A stretch of DNA of 41,078 nt from the NCBI GenBank assembly GCA_027451905.1, contig DAIDHV010000012.1, positions 1 through 41,078 on the forward strand. The letters are read 5' to 3'. The notes under the pieces are model-generated. The model did no database searches. It was given only the letters and a program-made list of their open reading frames with translations, and was not told where the DNA came from. Of the stretch, positions 20,084-25,848 are shown one piece after another. Each line of letters starts with the position of its first letter. Positions within the stretch are counted from its first letter, which is position 1. This DNA is from Armatimonadota bacterium. Its GTDB lineage: Bacteria; Armatimonadota; Fimbriimonadia; Fimbriimonadales; Fimbriimonadaceae. Made by a program: the position numbers and the translations under genes.

Positions 20084-20132
20084 AGTTTTGTCTAAGGCAC
20101 CAAGACGGTGCCATGGCAAACAACTCAGATTT

Positions 20133-20699
20133 ATGGCAATTGATACCAGTGATTTCAAGAATGGAATGCACTTTTACATGGATGGAGACGTGTACACCAT
20201 CATTGAATTTCAGCATGTCAAGCCTGGAAAAGGCGGGGCATTTGTCCGAACACGTTTAAGAAAAATTAAGTCGGGCCAAACCCTCGAAAAAACTTTCCGA
20301 GCCGGAGAAAGAGTGGAACCGGCATTTGTGGAAAAGTTAAAGCTGCAGTTTTTGAATAAGCAGCGAAATGAAGCGATTTTGATGGACTTGGAAACCTACG
20401 AGCAAAATCCAGTCCCCATGGACATGCTGGGAGACCAAGCCAAGTACCTCAAAGAAGATTCTGAAGTCACCGCCCTTGTTGCAGATGGCGAAACCCTAGG
20501 TTACGAACTGCCTAATTTTGTTGAACTCGAAGTTATTGAAACGGACCCCGGATTCAAAGGCGATACGGTGAGTGGAAGCACAAAACCAGCCAAGTTGGAA
20601 ACCGGTGCCTCGGTTCAAGTGCCATTTCATATCGAAGTTGGCGATGTGGTGAAGGTGGATACCCGAACCGATTCGTACCTCGAACGCGTCAAAAAATAG
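20133..20699 (+). CDS. efp: Translation elongation factor P
   Basis: This 188-residue protein relieves ribosome stalling at polyproline stretches. All three beta-barrel domains are present. The N-terminal domain tip loop PGKGGAF carries a lysine (K33), so any activating modification would be of the lysine type (as with EpmA, or the Bacillus type), not arginine rhamnosylation. The C-terminal signature VQVPFHIEVGDVVKVDTRT is typical. The frame extends 23 codons upstream to a TTG, but the family starts at M(A)-x-DTSDFKNG, which fixes the ATG at 20133. No modification enzyme is in the window. Same strand as the next two genes. Confidence 0.97.
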   Translation: MAIDTSDFKNGMHFYMDGDVYTIIEFQHVKPGKGGAFVRTRLRKIKSGQTLEKTFRAGERVEPAFVEKLKLQFLNKQRNEAILMDLETYEQNPVPMDMLGDQAKYLKEDSEVTALVADGETLGYELPNFVELEVIETDPGFKGDTVSGSTKPAKLETGASVQVPFHIEVGDVVKVDTRTDSYLERVKK

Positions 20700-20748: not shown

Positions 20749-21819
20749 ATGAGTTACGACAATAAGTCTGCATCAAATCGAGATCTCACCGATACCTTTT
20801 TCGACTTCCTAGCTTGGGTCGCAAGGGCTTTGGTCTGGCTAGGGCTAGGCGCCTTCCTGGTAGGGCTCGGGTTCATGATGTTCTACGTCTTTGGCCCTAA
20901 TTTAACCGATCCGGGAAAGATTCAGCAAGCCACCAACAATATCCTGATTCTAAGCAAAGTTCTGGATGCTGGCGTTCTTGGCCTCTCAGTCGGTCTTGGC
21001 TACCTTTACTTTGGTGAGGAAACCTTAGGCCCTCTGATCTTAGTGGGCAGCGCCGCTCTTTACTTTGCCCCACTTGCCTTGCCAAGCGTGGCTGGAACTC
21101 AGTCGTCTGCTGGCACTGCTGCATTGGGGGCAATCCAAAGCGCGGGAGTGCTGGGAGGAGTGGTTGGCATTATTATCGTCCTTCTCAGCGTTATCGTTGC
21201 GGTTCGAGAAAGGGCAACCCTTGGCGCAAAGAAAGACACTCTTAAGCTGGGCAAGGATGTCAAGGCCGAAAAAACCCAAAATGTGCTTCTTGGCAGCTGC
21301 TGGCAATTGCCATTTTGCAGAAAGTTTGTCCGCGATCGGTGCCCAATTTACCACTCAAAACGAACATGCTGGAGGGAGCTTGTTGGCTGCATGTGCGAAG
21401 AAGAAATCATCATGAATGCGATGCAGAACAAGCCAGTTGCCAAGAATGATCTTGTGGCTGCCTCGGCAATGATTCCCCGCAATCACAAGCTAACAGACGC
21501 CCAAAAGCGAACGCGATGCAAAAGCTGCGTCATCTACAATGAGCACTTGCGGCACAAGTACCGAGTCACGGTTCCAGCCATTATTGGAACGTACATCTTG
21601 CTGTATTTGCTTCTTAGAAGCCCACTATCCACCGAGTTCACGGGTTTGATCACTTCGACCGGCAGGCTGATTGGCAGCTTTACCATGACGGGGAGCGGCC
21701 ACAAGGTTGCGGCCCCACCGGTTTGGCTTCCTGAAATCCTAACCGCGGTGATCTTTGTTTTGGCTTTGAGCTACACGCTCAAGATTGTGGAATACCTGTA
21801 CTTCAACCTCAAGATTTAG
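20749..21819 (+). CDS. Membrane protein with an eight-cysteine cytosolic cluster, unknown
   Basis: I do not recognise this 356-residue protein. About four hydrophobic segments lie in the N-terminal half (roughly 22-48, 70-88, 93-112, 131-152). A soluble stretch (153-270) holds C184, C190, C198, C207, C214, C216, C257 and C260, and two further helices (about 273-290 and 325-345) end the protein. The cysteine pattern C-x5-C-x7-C-x8-C-x6-C-x-C plus a distant C-x2-C suggests two iron-sulfur clusters or two zinc sites. The motifs CPIYHSKRTCWRELVGC and RCKSCVIYNEH look conserved. It lies 49 bp after efp and 13 bp before rtcA, likely in one transcript. It could be a redox membrane protein or a zinc-stabilised scaffold; the function is unknown. 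Confidence 0.7.
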   Translation: MSYDNKSASNRDLTDTFFDFLAWVARALVWLGLGAFLVGLGFMMFYVFGPNLTDPGKIQQATNNILILSKVLDAGVLGLSVGLGYLYFGEETLGPLILVGSAALYFAPLALPSVAGTQSSAGTAALGAIQSAGVLGGVVGIIIVLLSVIVAVRERATLGAKKDTLKLGKDVKAEKTQNVLLGSCWQLPFCRKFVRDRCPIYHSKRTCWRELVGCMCEEEIIMNAMQNKPVAKNDLVAASAMIPRNHKLTDAQKRTRCKSCVIYNEHLRHKYRVTVPAIIGTYILLYLLLRSPLSTEFTGLITSTGRLIGSFTMTGSGHKVAAPPVWLPEILTAVIFVLALSYTLKIVEYLYFNLKI

Positions 21820-21832
21820 TTGATTGGTCTCA

Positions 21833-22900
21833 ATGGCATCTAGCTTGGTTCGAGAGGCAATGGTAGAACTTGATGGAGCCCACCTTGAAGGAGGAGGAGC
21901 GCTGATCAGAACCGCATTGCAGATGGCTGCCCTCACCCAGCTGCCGGTCCGCATCAGGCAAGTTCGAGGCGGCACAAACCATCCGGGACTAGATTTAGAA
22001 GATATTCAAATCGTCAAGCTTCTTGCCAAGTCTTGCCAAGCCGAACTTGAAGGGTCAGAAATCTCATCCCACGAGCTAACTTTTGTGCCAAAAAGGCGGT
22101 TGATGCCTCTAGCCGACGCACGAGAACCCTCCAAAAAAACATCAAGAGGGGCGAATGCGCTTATCGTTTTGGCGACAGTTCTACCCGTCCTAGCAAGGTC
22201 AGGGGGATTTTGTGAAGTTGAAACGGAGGGCGAAACGTTTGGGCCCAACACGCTTACCTTTGATTACCTCAATCAAGTTGGGTTGCCAGCCCTTAGAAAA
22301 ATGGGCATTTATTGTTGGCTCGATCAGCTGGTTGCGGGATTTGGCCGAGAAAACTACGGCAAGGTTTCGATGGAGGTCGAACCAAGCCAGATCGAAGGAA
22401 TCGAATGGTTGGATCGGGGCAGAATGGTTGGCTGCCATGCCATGATCACCACCAGCGAACTGCCGACTCATGTCTACGCCAGAGGCAAGCAGCATCTCGA
22501 AAATCTGTCTCACTATGCAGGAGTTCCAATTCGAATCAACCATGCCGAAGTCAAGGGGTCTTCCCCTGGTGCAGCAGTGACCTTATGGGCAGAATTTGAA
22601 AGAGGGATGGGCGGAGTTGTTCAGATGGGAAGCCGTGGCTTAAGAATCGAAACCGTAGCCCAGGCTGCCTTTGAGGGGATTTCTGAATTTTTGTCCTCTG
22701 ACGCAACCGTTGACAACCACCTGTGTGATCTCATCTTGGCTCCTGCCGTATTTGCCAATGGCCCGACCACATTTAAAGTCCACCGCCTGACCAAGCGTCT
22801 GCTCACTATTGTTTGGGTAGTTAAGCAGTTTTTACCGATTCACTTAACCGTGTTAGGTGAAGAAGGTCAACCGGGCACCATCAAAATTCGCCCTTCTTAG
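21833..22900 (+). CDS. rtcA: RNA 3'-terminal phosphate cyclase
   Basis: This 355-residue enzyme converts RNA 3'-phosphate ends to 2',3'-cyclic phosphates using ATP. The N-terminal ELDGAHLEGGGALIRTAL and VRGGTNHPGL match the family, as do the segments GGFCEVETEGETFGPN and SSPGAAVTLWAEFE. The histidine in KVHRLTKRLLT (H317) aligns with the nucleophile that becomes adenylated. A TTG at 21824, this ATG and an ATG at 21860 are all possible starts; homologues usually begin close to the ELDG motif. The ligase RtcB and the sigma-54 activator RtcR, partners in other bacteria, are not in the window, though rpoN itself lies 4 kb away. Confidence 0.92.
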   Translation: MASSLVREAMVELDGAHLEGGGALIRTALQMAALTQLPVRIRQVRGGTNHPGLDLEDIQIVKLLAKSCQAELEGSEISSHELTFVPKRRLMPLADAREPSKKTSRGANALIVLATVLPVLARSGGFCEVETEGETFGPNTLTFDYLNQVGLPALRKMGIYCWLDQLVAGFGRENYGKVSMEVEPSQIEGIEWLDRGRMVGCHAMITTSELPTHVYARGKQHLENLSHYAGVPIRINHAEVKGSSPGAAVTLWAEFERGMGGVVQMGSRGLRIETVAQAAFEGISEFLSSDATVDNHLCDLILAPAVFANGPTTFKVHRLTKRLLTIVWVVKQFLPIHLTVLGEEGQPGTIKIRPS

Positions 22901-23040
22901 AGCCTTTCCTTCTTTCGGATTTCACCCAAATTTAGGCTGAGAGTTCTGGACTAGCCCGCAATCTTGAGGTTCAAAAGCAAACAAAATTACCGTTGAATTG
23001 CGTCATTCTGTACACTGAAGGAGTTTCCCCCCAAACGCCA

Positions 23041-25848
23041 ATGAAGTATCGAACTTTTTTATTTGCCGCAATGCTAGGCATTGCGGCCGTCAGCCGCGCC
23101 ACAGTGCTGACCTTAAACACCGCACTTTTTAACAAGGGCCCCCTGACAAGGGCAGAAGTTGTCGCAGCCGCGGATGCTGAGGTCACTACATTTGAAAATA
23201 ATGCCTACAAACTCTCTCAAAATGCCATCGAGCTAAGGCAAAAGCTGGGTTTGTGGAAGAAAGGCATTCCGTTTTCGTTGCCAGTTGTGGTTCGGCTTTC
23301 TTCAAAAACTGGCGGAACGGGGGCTGGGTTTGGCACCGGGGGAGGGTTCAACCATTACTCAGCCGGACCAGGTGGTTTTGGCGGAGGGCCAGGCGGAGGG
23401 CCGAGGCAACTCACAAGCGGACCGCTCACTTTGCAATTTGATTCTTCGGGATCGGAGGCGTTCCCAGTTGCCTATCAGCAGCTTTTACAAAGCGTTTTTA
23501 ACCAAGCCGAACCGACACTCAACCTGCTTTTTGGAAACCCAGCGGTGGGAGGGGTTGTGCATGTTGCCAACTTTGACAGCACAATTGGAGACCGTCAGGC
23601 TGTAGCTGGCGGATACTATCTGCCCAATAACGGGGCAGGAATGCCGGAGATTCGATTTCCAGTTTACAACGCCAATGAAACGGCGGCCGTCAACTTTATC
23701 CATTGCCTGCTCCTTGCTTATTTGGGCCCCGATGGATACTCATCCGATTCTTTTGAAGAGGGGTTGGTTAGGGCGGTGACGATGAAAGTGGTGCGAACCG
23801 CAGGTGCCATGCCATCCAACCTCGATCCCACCGCAATGGAAAACGTTTTAGAGGCAGATTATGACGTGCTTGGATTTTATGATTGGGATAATCAAAGAGC
23901 CCTAAGCGCGGCTTCGTTTATTGCCCCCAACTTGATTTCTACCCCTTTGCCAGCAAGCGGAGGAACAGGGCTATTTTTGGATCGGTACATCATGGCCGGC
24001 TCGGCGTGGGCAAAAGTTCTTACCGAATACCCAACTTTTGCCGCCAACCTCAATCAACAAATCTATGCCAATCCATCGCTGGGCAGCAATATCCCCGGAC
24101 TTGTCAGTGCCGCTCAGACCATCTTAAACACCAGCCGCCCTTCTGCCCCAACCGTGGAGGGCTATCCATTTGTCAATTGGTACGATCGGCAATTTGTTTT
24201 ACAGCCGACTTCCGTTTTTGGGACAAGGCTATTTTCTCAGGTCTTGCCAATTAGCCCCACAACCGGAGACTTTGCGGTTTTTGACATCGCGGCAACCCTC
24301 TTCTCTACTGATTCAAGCGGCAACGAGAAGCTCCTGAGTTCCGTTACGGGATATCCGATATTTTGGGATGATCAGTACCAACGCTTTACAACCAGCGCCC
24401 AAGATGCCCAGATGGCATTTAACAACGGAGATGCCAACGTTGAACCGAATTTGCCCGATCTCTATGCTGGCCAAGAGTATCGTGCCACTCTGGACGTCCC
24501 CGTCCTTGATCAGGTGGCAAGGGTGATGGTGCCTGCCGATGGAGCTTATACATCATCTGGCACAGGCAATGACTTTTACGGGACAACCGCAGGAGTGACC
24601 CTCAACACCGGTGACACATTAAACGTGACGGTTTCGGTTGGTGGAACCCAAATTGCTTCCTTTCCGGTGGTCAACGATGCTTTTGGCGGCACGATTGGAT
24701 CGCTGAACGGTTACGACACGGGAGGACTGCAAATCACAGTTTCGTTGGTTCAACAGTCGGGAACCACAAATACCACGCTGTTGACAAGAACAATTGATAA
24801 ACCCGGACCTGGGGCGCTTGCCGTCAATATGTTTGTCAATTCAGAACAAACCTATTCCTACCCGAATGGACTTCCGGGTGGGATTTCCATGGTTGGGATT
24901 CCTGATGACCCTTACACCAGCGATGTAGCCGCCATTTTAGGAACGCCGGCCAATGACACGCTGGTTGCGCGGTATGATCCTTCCACCGTCAACTACGATT
25001 TCTACCCAGATGTGGAGCCTTTTGAAGCTGGTCACAGTTATTTTGTCAACCTAAACACGTCGATCCCTAACTTTGCCCTTTCCGGCAGAGAGCAAAGCGG
25101 CACCTCGCGCTGTGTTGCATTAAAACCGGGTTGGAATATGGTGAGCTTGCCTCTTCTGCAATCCCTGCAAACCACTAGCGTTCGCGTGGTCCATGCCACC
25201 GATTTTCCGGTTGACTTCGCAACCGCAGAAGGAACTTTGATTGGCAAGGATTTCTTCTTCTTTGCTCCTGGAGCCAACGACCCGATCGCGGGAACCCCAC
25301 AAGGCGGCACATTCAAACCTTCCACGACCTTTGACCCAGGAGTTGGATACTTTATAGAAGATCTTGCCCCAGAAGGGGTTACGTTGGTTTTTGATCCTGG
25401 CAACACCGCCAACATTGCTCATCCGCTGGCATCGCAACCCTCTGGCTGGGAAATGAAGGCGATTTTTACGACCGCCGACGGCCATTCCACAGAGGATATT
25501 TTGGGAGGGCTGATCGGAGCCACTGATGTTTACAACAGCAGCTTTGATACCCCGTTGCCACCCGTCCTGGGAGTTGGCTTGCAAGCCGCTTCGCTCAACG
25601 GACCTACTCGACTGTTTCGTGATGAAAGATCGTATGGCAAGTGGCAAAACTTCACCATTCAGGTGCAGGGACTTCCGGTTGGAAAACAGTTCACGCTTTC
25701 GTTTGCTAGAGATCAGGGCATCATTCGGTACTTTACGGTCACCAACAATCAAACTGGTCAGATTCAAACCTGCTTTATCAATTCTCAACTCACTTTTACG
25801 GCAACCGCCGCAACCGAGACATTTACCATAAGGGCGATAGGATTTTGA
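23041..25848 (+). CDS. Large secreted protein with degenerate peptidase-like N-terminal region
   Basis: This 935-residue exported protein has a signal peptide (MKYRTFLFAAMLGIAAVSRA) and no family I can name. A Gly-rich linker lies at about 95-125. The region from about 170 to 350 has the outline of a surface metallopeptidase (FIHCLLLAYLG, then SFEEGLVRAV), but the first motif lacks the HExxH glutamate and second histidine, so it is probably inactive. The rest is beta-rich, with paired modules containing GWNMVSLPL and an FDPGVGYFIE motif, a pattern common in secreted proteins of this kind. The frame extends 16 codons upstream to a TTG, but the ATG at 23041 starts the signal peptide. It overlaps the lipoprotein gene by 4 bp, so their translation is coupled. 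Confidence 0.7.
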   Translation: MKYRTFLFAAMLGIAAVSRATVLTLNTALFNKGPLTRAEVVAAADAEVTTFENNAYKLSQNAIELRQKLGLWKKGIPFSLPVVVRLSSKTGGTGAGFGTGGGFNHYSAGPGGFGGGPGGGPRQLTSGPLTLQFDSSGSEAFPVAYQQLLQSVFNQAEPTLNLLFGNPAVGGVVHVANFDSTIGDRQAVAGGYYLPNNGAGMPEIRFPVYNANETAAVNFIHCLLLAYLGPDGYSSDSFEEGLVRAVTMKVVRTAGAMPSNLDPTAMENVLEADYDVLGFYDWDNQRALSAASFIAPNLISTPLPASGGTGLFLDRYIMAGSAWAKVLTEYPTFAANLNQQIYANPSLGSNIPGLVSAAQTILNTSRPSAPTVEGYPFVNWYDRQFVLQPTSVFGTRLFSQVLPISPTTGDFAVFDIAATLFSTDSSGNEKLLSSVTGYPIFWDDQYQRFTTSAQDAQMAFNNGDANVEPNLPDLYAGQEYRATLDVPVLDQVARVMVPADGAYTSSGTGNDFYGTTAGVTLNTGDTLNVTVSVGGTQIASFPVVNDAFGGTIGSLNGYDTGGLQITVSLVQQSGTTNTTLLTRTIDKPGPGALAVNMFVNSEQTYSYPNGLPGGISMVGIPDDPYTSDVAAILGTPANDTLVARYDPSTVNYDFYPDVEPFEAGHSYFVNLNTSIPNFALSGREQSGTSRCVALKPGWNMVSLPLLQSLQTTSVRVVHATDFPVDFATAEGTLIGKDFFFFAPGANDPIAGTPQGGTFKPSTTFDPGVGYFIEDLAPEGVTLVFDPGNTANIAHPLASQPSGWEMKAIFTTADGHSTEDILGGLIGATDVYNSSFDTPLPPVLGVGLQAASLNGPTRLFRDERSYGKWQNFTIQVQGLPVGKQFTLSFARDQGIIRYFTVTNNQTGQIQTCFINSQLTFTATAATETFTIRAIGF

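Follow-up and report, generated by a model that had tools for sequence, protein, structure and literature searches.

We describe a gene of Armatimonadota (here gene X), located in the 41,078-nucleotide stretch of DNA that was analysed (the window), which is unannotated, belongs to the core genes of its phylum and probably encodes a metal-binding protein of a two-CW-like kind that is anchored in the membrane and serves as a sensor or for docking. Relatives of gene X were detected in 270 of 291 Armatimonadota genomes and in 187 of the 194 near-complete ones (~96%), in most cases as a single copy, with two full-length copies in G191 and G192, which belong to one family. Of 22 apparent or partial misses re-examined with a profile, four yielded matches, variants that have lost the cysteine domain among them; in the remaining misses the gene is absent or lies within the unassembled part of the genome, and the clear absences include two small genomes (1.5 Mb) with 97% completeness. 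No relatives were returned when genome contigs were searched with the single protein sequence, and an alignment-based search of genome contigs returned 141. The best 80 of these 141 loci, which were examined, carry Armatimonadota names except for a few labelled ‘bacterium’ and one labelled archaeal, and the oddly labelled loci that were checked coincide with genomes of the Armatimonadota set. One such record (JADZEW010000030.1, L083), a metagenome-assembled genome labelled Methanoregulaceae archaeon, carries an Armatimonadota gene X locus, and its label looks wrong. A search of plasmid sequences gave no match, and our literature search on the two-CW domain, Armatimonadota core genes and gene X found nothing relevant; as far as that literature goes, the gene is unpublished.

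A sequence-only reading of the window had called the product an unrecognised membrane protein, and this description holds: the protein, which starts at an ATG codon, has no significant match to any characterised family in Pfam, NCBIfam or PDB sequences, and both AlphaFold2 and hydropathy averaged over the alignment give membrane helices, six in number (Table 1). In the AlphaFold2 model (mean pLDDT 80, with the membrane helices mostly >90) helices span residues 8-48, 55-86, 93-115 and 120-165 in the N-terminal part and residues 261-311 and 326-353 in the C-terminal part, where E348 and F352 are conserved close to the end. The cysteine-bearing loop lies between helix 4 and helix 5 and contains on average 25 K+R versus 12 D+E, whereas the loops on the opposite side contain 1-3 K+R. 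Since it is so strongly positive, the loop is predicted from the positive-inside rule to be cytosolic, as the earlier reading had proposed; thiols on the cytosolic side of the membrane stay reduced. AlphaFold2 modelled the cysteine domain alone with low confidence (mean pLDDT 65). Foldseek searches with the models of the whole protein and of the domain alone gave no match at E <1, the domain had no PDB match by sequence search or by Foldseek, and no recognisable output domain was found in the protein. Matches of the model obtained with VIA-align (Z up to 6.4) were rejected as generic helical bundles, and a weak match to bacteriorhodopsin (E 0.035) was rejected as one of hydrophobic composition.

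Table 1. Gene X, its parts and its immediate neighbours (positions in the window).
Feature	Position	Strand	Basis
Gene X, six-helix membrane protein with eight-cysteine, predicted cytosolic domain, 356 aa (356 codons)	20749..21819	+	ORF list, homologues, structure model
Gene X, N-terminal membrane part, ~four predicted membrane passes	20770..21243	+	AlphaFold2, alignment-averaged hydropathy
Gene X, eight-cysteine two-CW-like domain, C184 to C260	21298..21528	+	cysteine conservation, profile similarity
Gene X, C-terminal membrane part	21529..21816	+	conservation, hydropathy, AlphaFold2
efp, elongation factor P	20124..20699	+	Pfam EFP_N/EFP/Elong-fact-P_C
rtcA, RNA 3'-terminal phosphate cyclase	21833..22900	+	Pfam RTC

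The only cysteines of the protein are residues 184, 190, 198, 207, 214, 216, 257 and 260, with exactly the spacing given in the earlier reading (C-x5-C-x7-C-x8-C-x6-C-x-C plus C-x2-C), and the domain as a whole follows the pattern CW-x4-C-x7-CP-x7-CW-x5-C-x-C ... C-x2-C. By our own calculation, which assumes uniform placement, all eight cysteines of a 356-residue protein would fall within 77 residues by chance in ~1 of 7,000 cases, and any doubt over this clustering is removed by conservation across species: all eight aligned cysteines are kept in 166 of 169 distinct members, the most distant families included, and each single cysteine is present in 166-168 of the 169. W185, W208, G213, R195, P199, Y/F263 and K270 are likewise invariant or nearly so (among 117 members W208 is invariant and W185 nearly invariant), and H266, just behind the C-x2-C, is the sole nearly invariant histidine. 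In two lineages the domain was lost as a unit. In L178:1396-2358 (G107) the entire cysteine domain is swapped for a short linker, with both the helices of the membrane part and the efp-X-accB order kept, and in L181:1111-2151 (G155) five of the eight cysteines are lost and the gene still stands in the efp-accB operon; the membrane part can thus be retained when the cysteine domain is gone. Elsewhere, L222 (G145) has no C190 but has gained a cysteine three residues ahead of C198, and in L231, which the alignment still counts as complete, a one-residue deletion turns C-x-C into C-C. That the exceptions drop the domain wholly or mostly, or shift one cysteine, instead of losing single residues fits a shared metal site, and it is plausible that two metal ions or clusters are bound, each by four of the cysteines. 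Relatives that naturally lack the cysteines offer a direct way to test what the domain does. Kept in nearly all near-complete genomes, with eight near-invariant cysteines and no annotation, gene X probably matters a good deal to its hosts, most of which are uncultured.

The same reading knew of no family with this cysteine layout; this is not supported, since the layout overlaps with that of the two-CW domain (NCBIfam NF045718, curated cut-off 35 bits). The window's gene X protein gave no match at that cut-off, the best NF045718 score in its own genome (11.3 bits) lies at another place, and of 30 gene X relatives compared with the model two matched, with a best E of 0.65, which is not significant. 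To look for deeper similarity we compared gene X with genuine two-CW proteins of Armatimonadota, the shortest of which have domains that read CWE-x3-CPP-x2-R-x2-C-x-AY ... CW ... C ... C-x2-C-x-F. Gene X shares the two CW dipeptides and the C-x5-C-x7-C ... CW spacing found in L163-L171, and likewise ends in a C-x2-C with an aromatic residue behind it (C257, C260 and Y/F263); the G-T-x-C-x-G motif that stands behind the second CW of two-CW proteins is not found in gene X, which has G-C-x-C-[ED] instead. When broad alignments were compared by hhalign, gene X scored 33-37 against genuine two-CW domains (probability 82-92%), compared with a mean of ~11 (sd 2-3, maximum 19) for column-shuffled controls that included shuffles with the cysteine columns fixed. 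The aligned region is mainly the CW-C-C-CW part, with weak likeness elsewhere, and the probability falls to 27% with a shallower alignment of the gene X family and to 6% in a global-mode run made without a control. Because of these lower values and the missed NF045718 cut-off, we term the domain ‘two-CW-like’ and not a member of the family. In this phylum, two-CW domains occur stand-alone or fused to PAS repeats, GAF-histidine kinase modules or HTH_3 regulators, and these fusions tie the module to sensing and regulation. L163-L171 are Armatimonadota proteins of the XRE-type HTH class with a C-terminal two-CW domain (~150 aa), and are probable metal- or redox-responsive transcription regulators.

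In the window, gene X lies on the same strand as efp, 50 bases upstream, and rtcA, ~5 bases downstream; the close spacing and both identities noted in the earlier reading were confirmed, the latter by Pfam. As to the conservation of the efp neighbourhood, a check named in that reading, efp stands directly upstream on the same strand in 122 of the 163 members with enough upstream sequence, but large clades have gene X without efp. Downstream, rtcA follows directly in 58 of 159 testable members, all from the window's own family, and accB in 59 of the 159, from other families, where the common order is efp-X-accB-(pilin-like)-accC-nusB-folD, often followed by a polyprenyl synthase gene. In the window's own genome, contig C5 carries accB together with the pilin-like gene, accC, nusB and folD but has neither efp nor X, so the block is split in this family, with X apart and rtcA in the downstream slot. 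In another set of families gene X has no efp and stands directly behind tandem PilT-type genes (T2SSE domain); a pilT gene lies within 300 bases in 16 of 163 testable members, mostly <130 bases away, and in G288 the genes adjoining X score above the pilT-family cut-off. In other bacteria the genes efp-accB-accC-nusB-folD form a housekeeping block, so co-location of gene X with it mainly argues for growth-linked expression.

Three further observations concern other genes. The pilin-like gene between accB and accC, present in many Armatimonadota (for example L176:5139-5597 on contig C5 of the window's own genome, L053:6877-7257 and L032:7468-7827), encodes a small, unannotated one-helix protein with a weak N_methyl motif and a conserved C...CP-x-G...C-x-H-P-G-H pattern, and is unusual in that position. 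PilT-family ATPase genes number up to 10-12 per genome in G000 and its relatives, often two or three in tandem, whereas only two each are present in two reduced genomes that lack gene X. Behind rtcA, the window encodes a 951-aa protein (22993-25848) without a clear Pfam match; in L088 and L103 its relatives are encoded on the opposite strand, downstream of this locus.

Taking these results together, we tentatively favour, at somewhat below an even chance, the view that gene X encodes a conserved inner-membrane sensory or regulatory protein of Armatimonadota whose metal-binding, two-CW-like cytosolic domain tunes an adjacent envelope-linked process. In such a protein, the six helices would hold the domain on the cytosolic face, where the eight cysteines would bind metal in two Cys4 sites, as zinc or as iron-sulphur; a change in metal occupancy or redox state would then reshape the membrane part or affect how a cytosolic partner docks, and would thereby tune the process encoded alongside, which in most lineages may be the supply of membrane-lipid precursors (AccB/AccC) and in others the type IV pilus motors (PilT). 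Retention throughout the phylum, usually in single copy, the co-conserved cysteines, the predicted cytosolic side of the loop, the likeness to a module found in signalling proteins and the recurrent gene contexts speak for this view; the two lineages that manage without the cysteine domain (L178 and L181) speak against it, as do the missed NF045718 cut-off, the low-confidence model of the cysteine domain, the lack of a recognisable output domain and the two gene contexts, accB/accC and pilT, which point to different pathways. The bolder version, in which a two-CW-like metal or redox sensor within a six-helix protein controls, in nearly all Armatimonadota, either acetyl-CoA carboxylase, and with it the supply of membrane lipids, or the motors of type IV pili, is unlikely; if true, gene X would be a phylum-defining regulator and would represent a new class of single-protein membrane sensors that lack any known output domain.

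A rival reading does without sensing: the cysteine domain would be a fixed, zinc-bound structure that brings a cytosolic partner, AccB/AccC or ATPases of PilT type, to the membrane. The near-invariance of the cysteines, the adjacency to accB and pilT and the lack of an output domain all suit such structural docking, but the gene neighbourhood varies from clade to clade, the accBC cluster lies apart from gene X in the window's own genome and PilT is still present in genomes without gene X, and we judge this explanation rather doubtful. A role as an inner-membrane accessory protein of the type IV pilus, with the cysteine domain contacting PilT-family motors, draws on the large clade that has gene X directly behind tandem pilT-type genes, on the pilin-like small protein that the efp clade encodes two genes downstream of X and on the presence of platform-type proteins in all sampled genomes. 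We nevertheless regard it as improbable, as none of the pilT-family genes listed for the window's genome is on the contig of X, and genomes without gene X retain PilT and PilC, although this last pattern of presence and absence is uninformative, since hardly any of the sampled genomes lacks either protein. Still less probable is electron transfer, in which two [4Fe-4S] clusters would exchange electrons with the membrane part: eight cysteines on the predicted cytosolic side could hold two clusters, but their spacing differs from the ferredoxin motif CxxCxxCxxxCP, no ferredoxin-type match was found in NCBIfam, Pfam or PDB sequences, H266 is not placed deep in a helix as haem ligands are, and no redox-enzyme neighbours recur. 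Least probable is the proposal of the sequence-only reading that gene X is a sensor of redox state or stress with a specific link to translation or RNA repair. The neighbours efp upstream and rtcA downstream speak for it; against it, rtcA adjoins gene X only in the window's own family, elsewhere gene X is followed by accB/accC or stands behind pilT without efp, and efp adjacency within a housekeeping block is weak evidence.

The favoured reading of gene X as a membrane-anchored sensory or regulatory protein can be set against several known systems. The alphavirus nsP3 zinc-binding domain (nsP3_ZBD, PF20852) matches the cysteine region weakly in Pfam and PDB sequences (E 0.05-0.5), but with 13.7 of 27 bits it stays far below the gathering cut-off; this is most likely a chance cysteine match, and the Pfam hit (E 0.05) was rejected as one of cysteine composition. 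The AmaP membrane anchor (NF033218) reached 12.4 of 55 bits, below its cut-off, in a match that covers a single membrane helix. In Bacillus subtilis the slot between efp and accB, the same as that of gene X, is presumably filled by the SpoIIIA genes, several of which encode membrane proteins; unlike these, gene X bears a cysteine domain. A functional parallel is offered by yqhY, of the YqhY/Asp23 family, an uncharacterised gene in the B. subtilis accBC operon that was reported to act on acetyl-CoA carboxylase and proposed to be a regulator (PMC5437119). Both are genes of unknown biochemical function embedded with accB-accC, and by this analogy an effect of gene X on acetyl-CoA carboxylase is a reasonable idea, although the two proteins have no sequence match, gene X encodes a polytopic membrane protein and it precedes accBC, whereas yqhY comes after. 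The closest likeness is to the two-CW domain itself: the CW-x4-C-x7-C segment has identical spacing in the shortest two-CW members, and the second CW, the cysteine after it and the final C-x2-C with its aromatic residue are common to both. In contrast to two-CW domains, gene X has eight conserved cysteines and not seven (the extra one lying in G-C-x-C), a longer spacer before the C-x2-C (~40 residues in the window's protein) and a location between membrane helices. What is new in gene X is thus a variant of a known cysteine module within a new, membrane-protein architecture, which brings into the membrane a two-CW-like module that is without a solved structure and is familiar in this phylum from kinases and transcription regulators.
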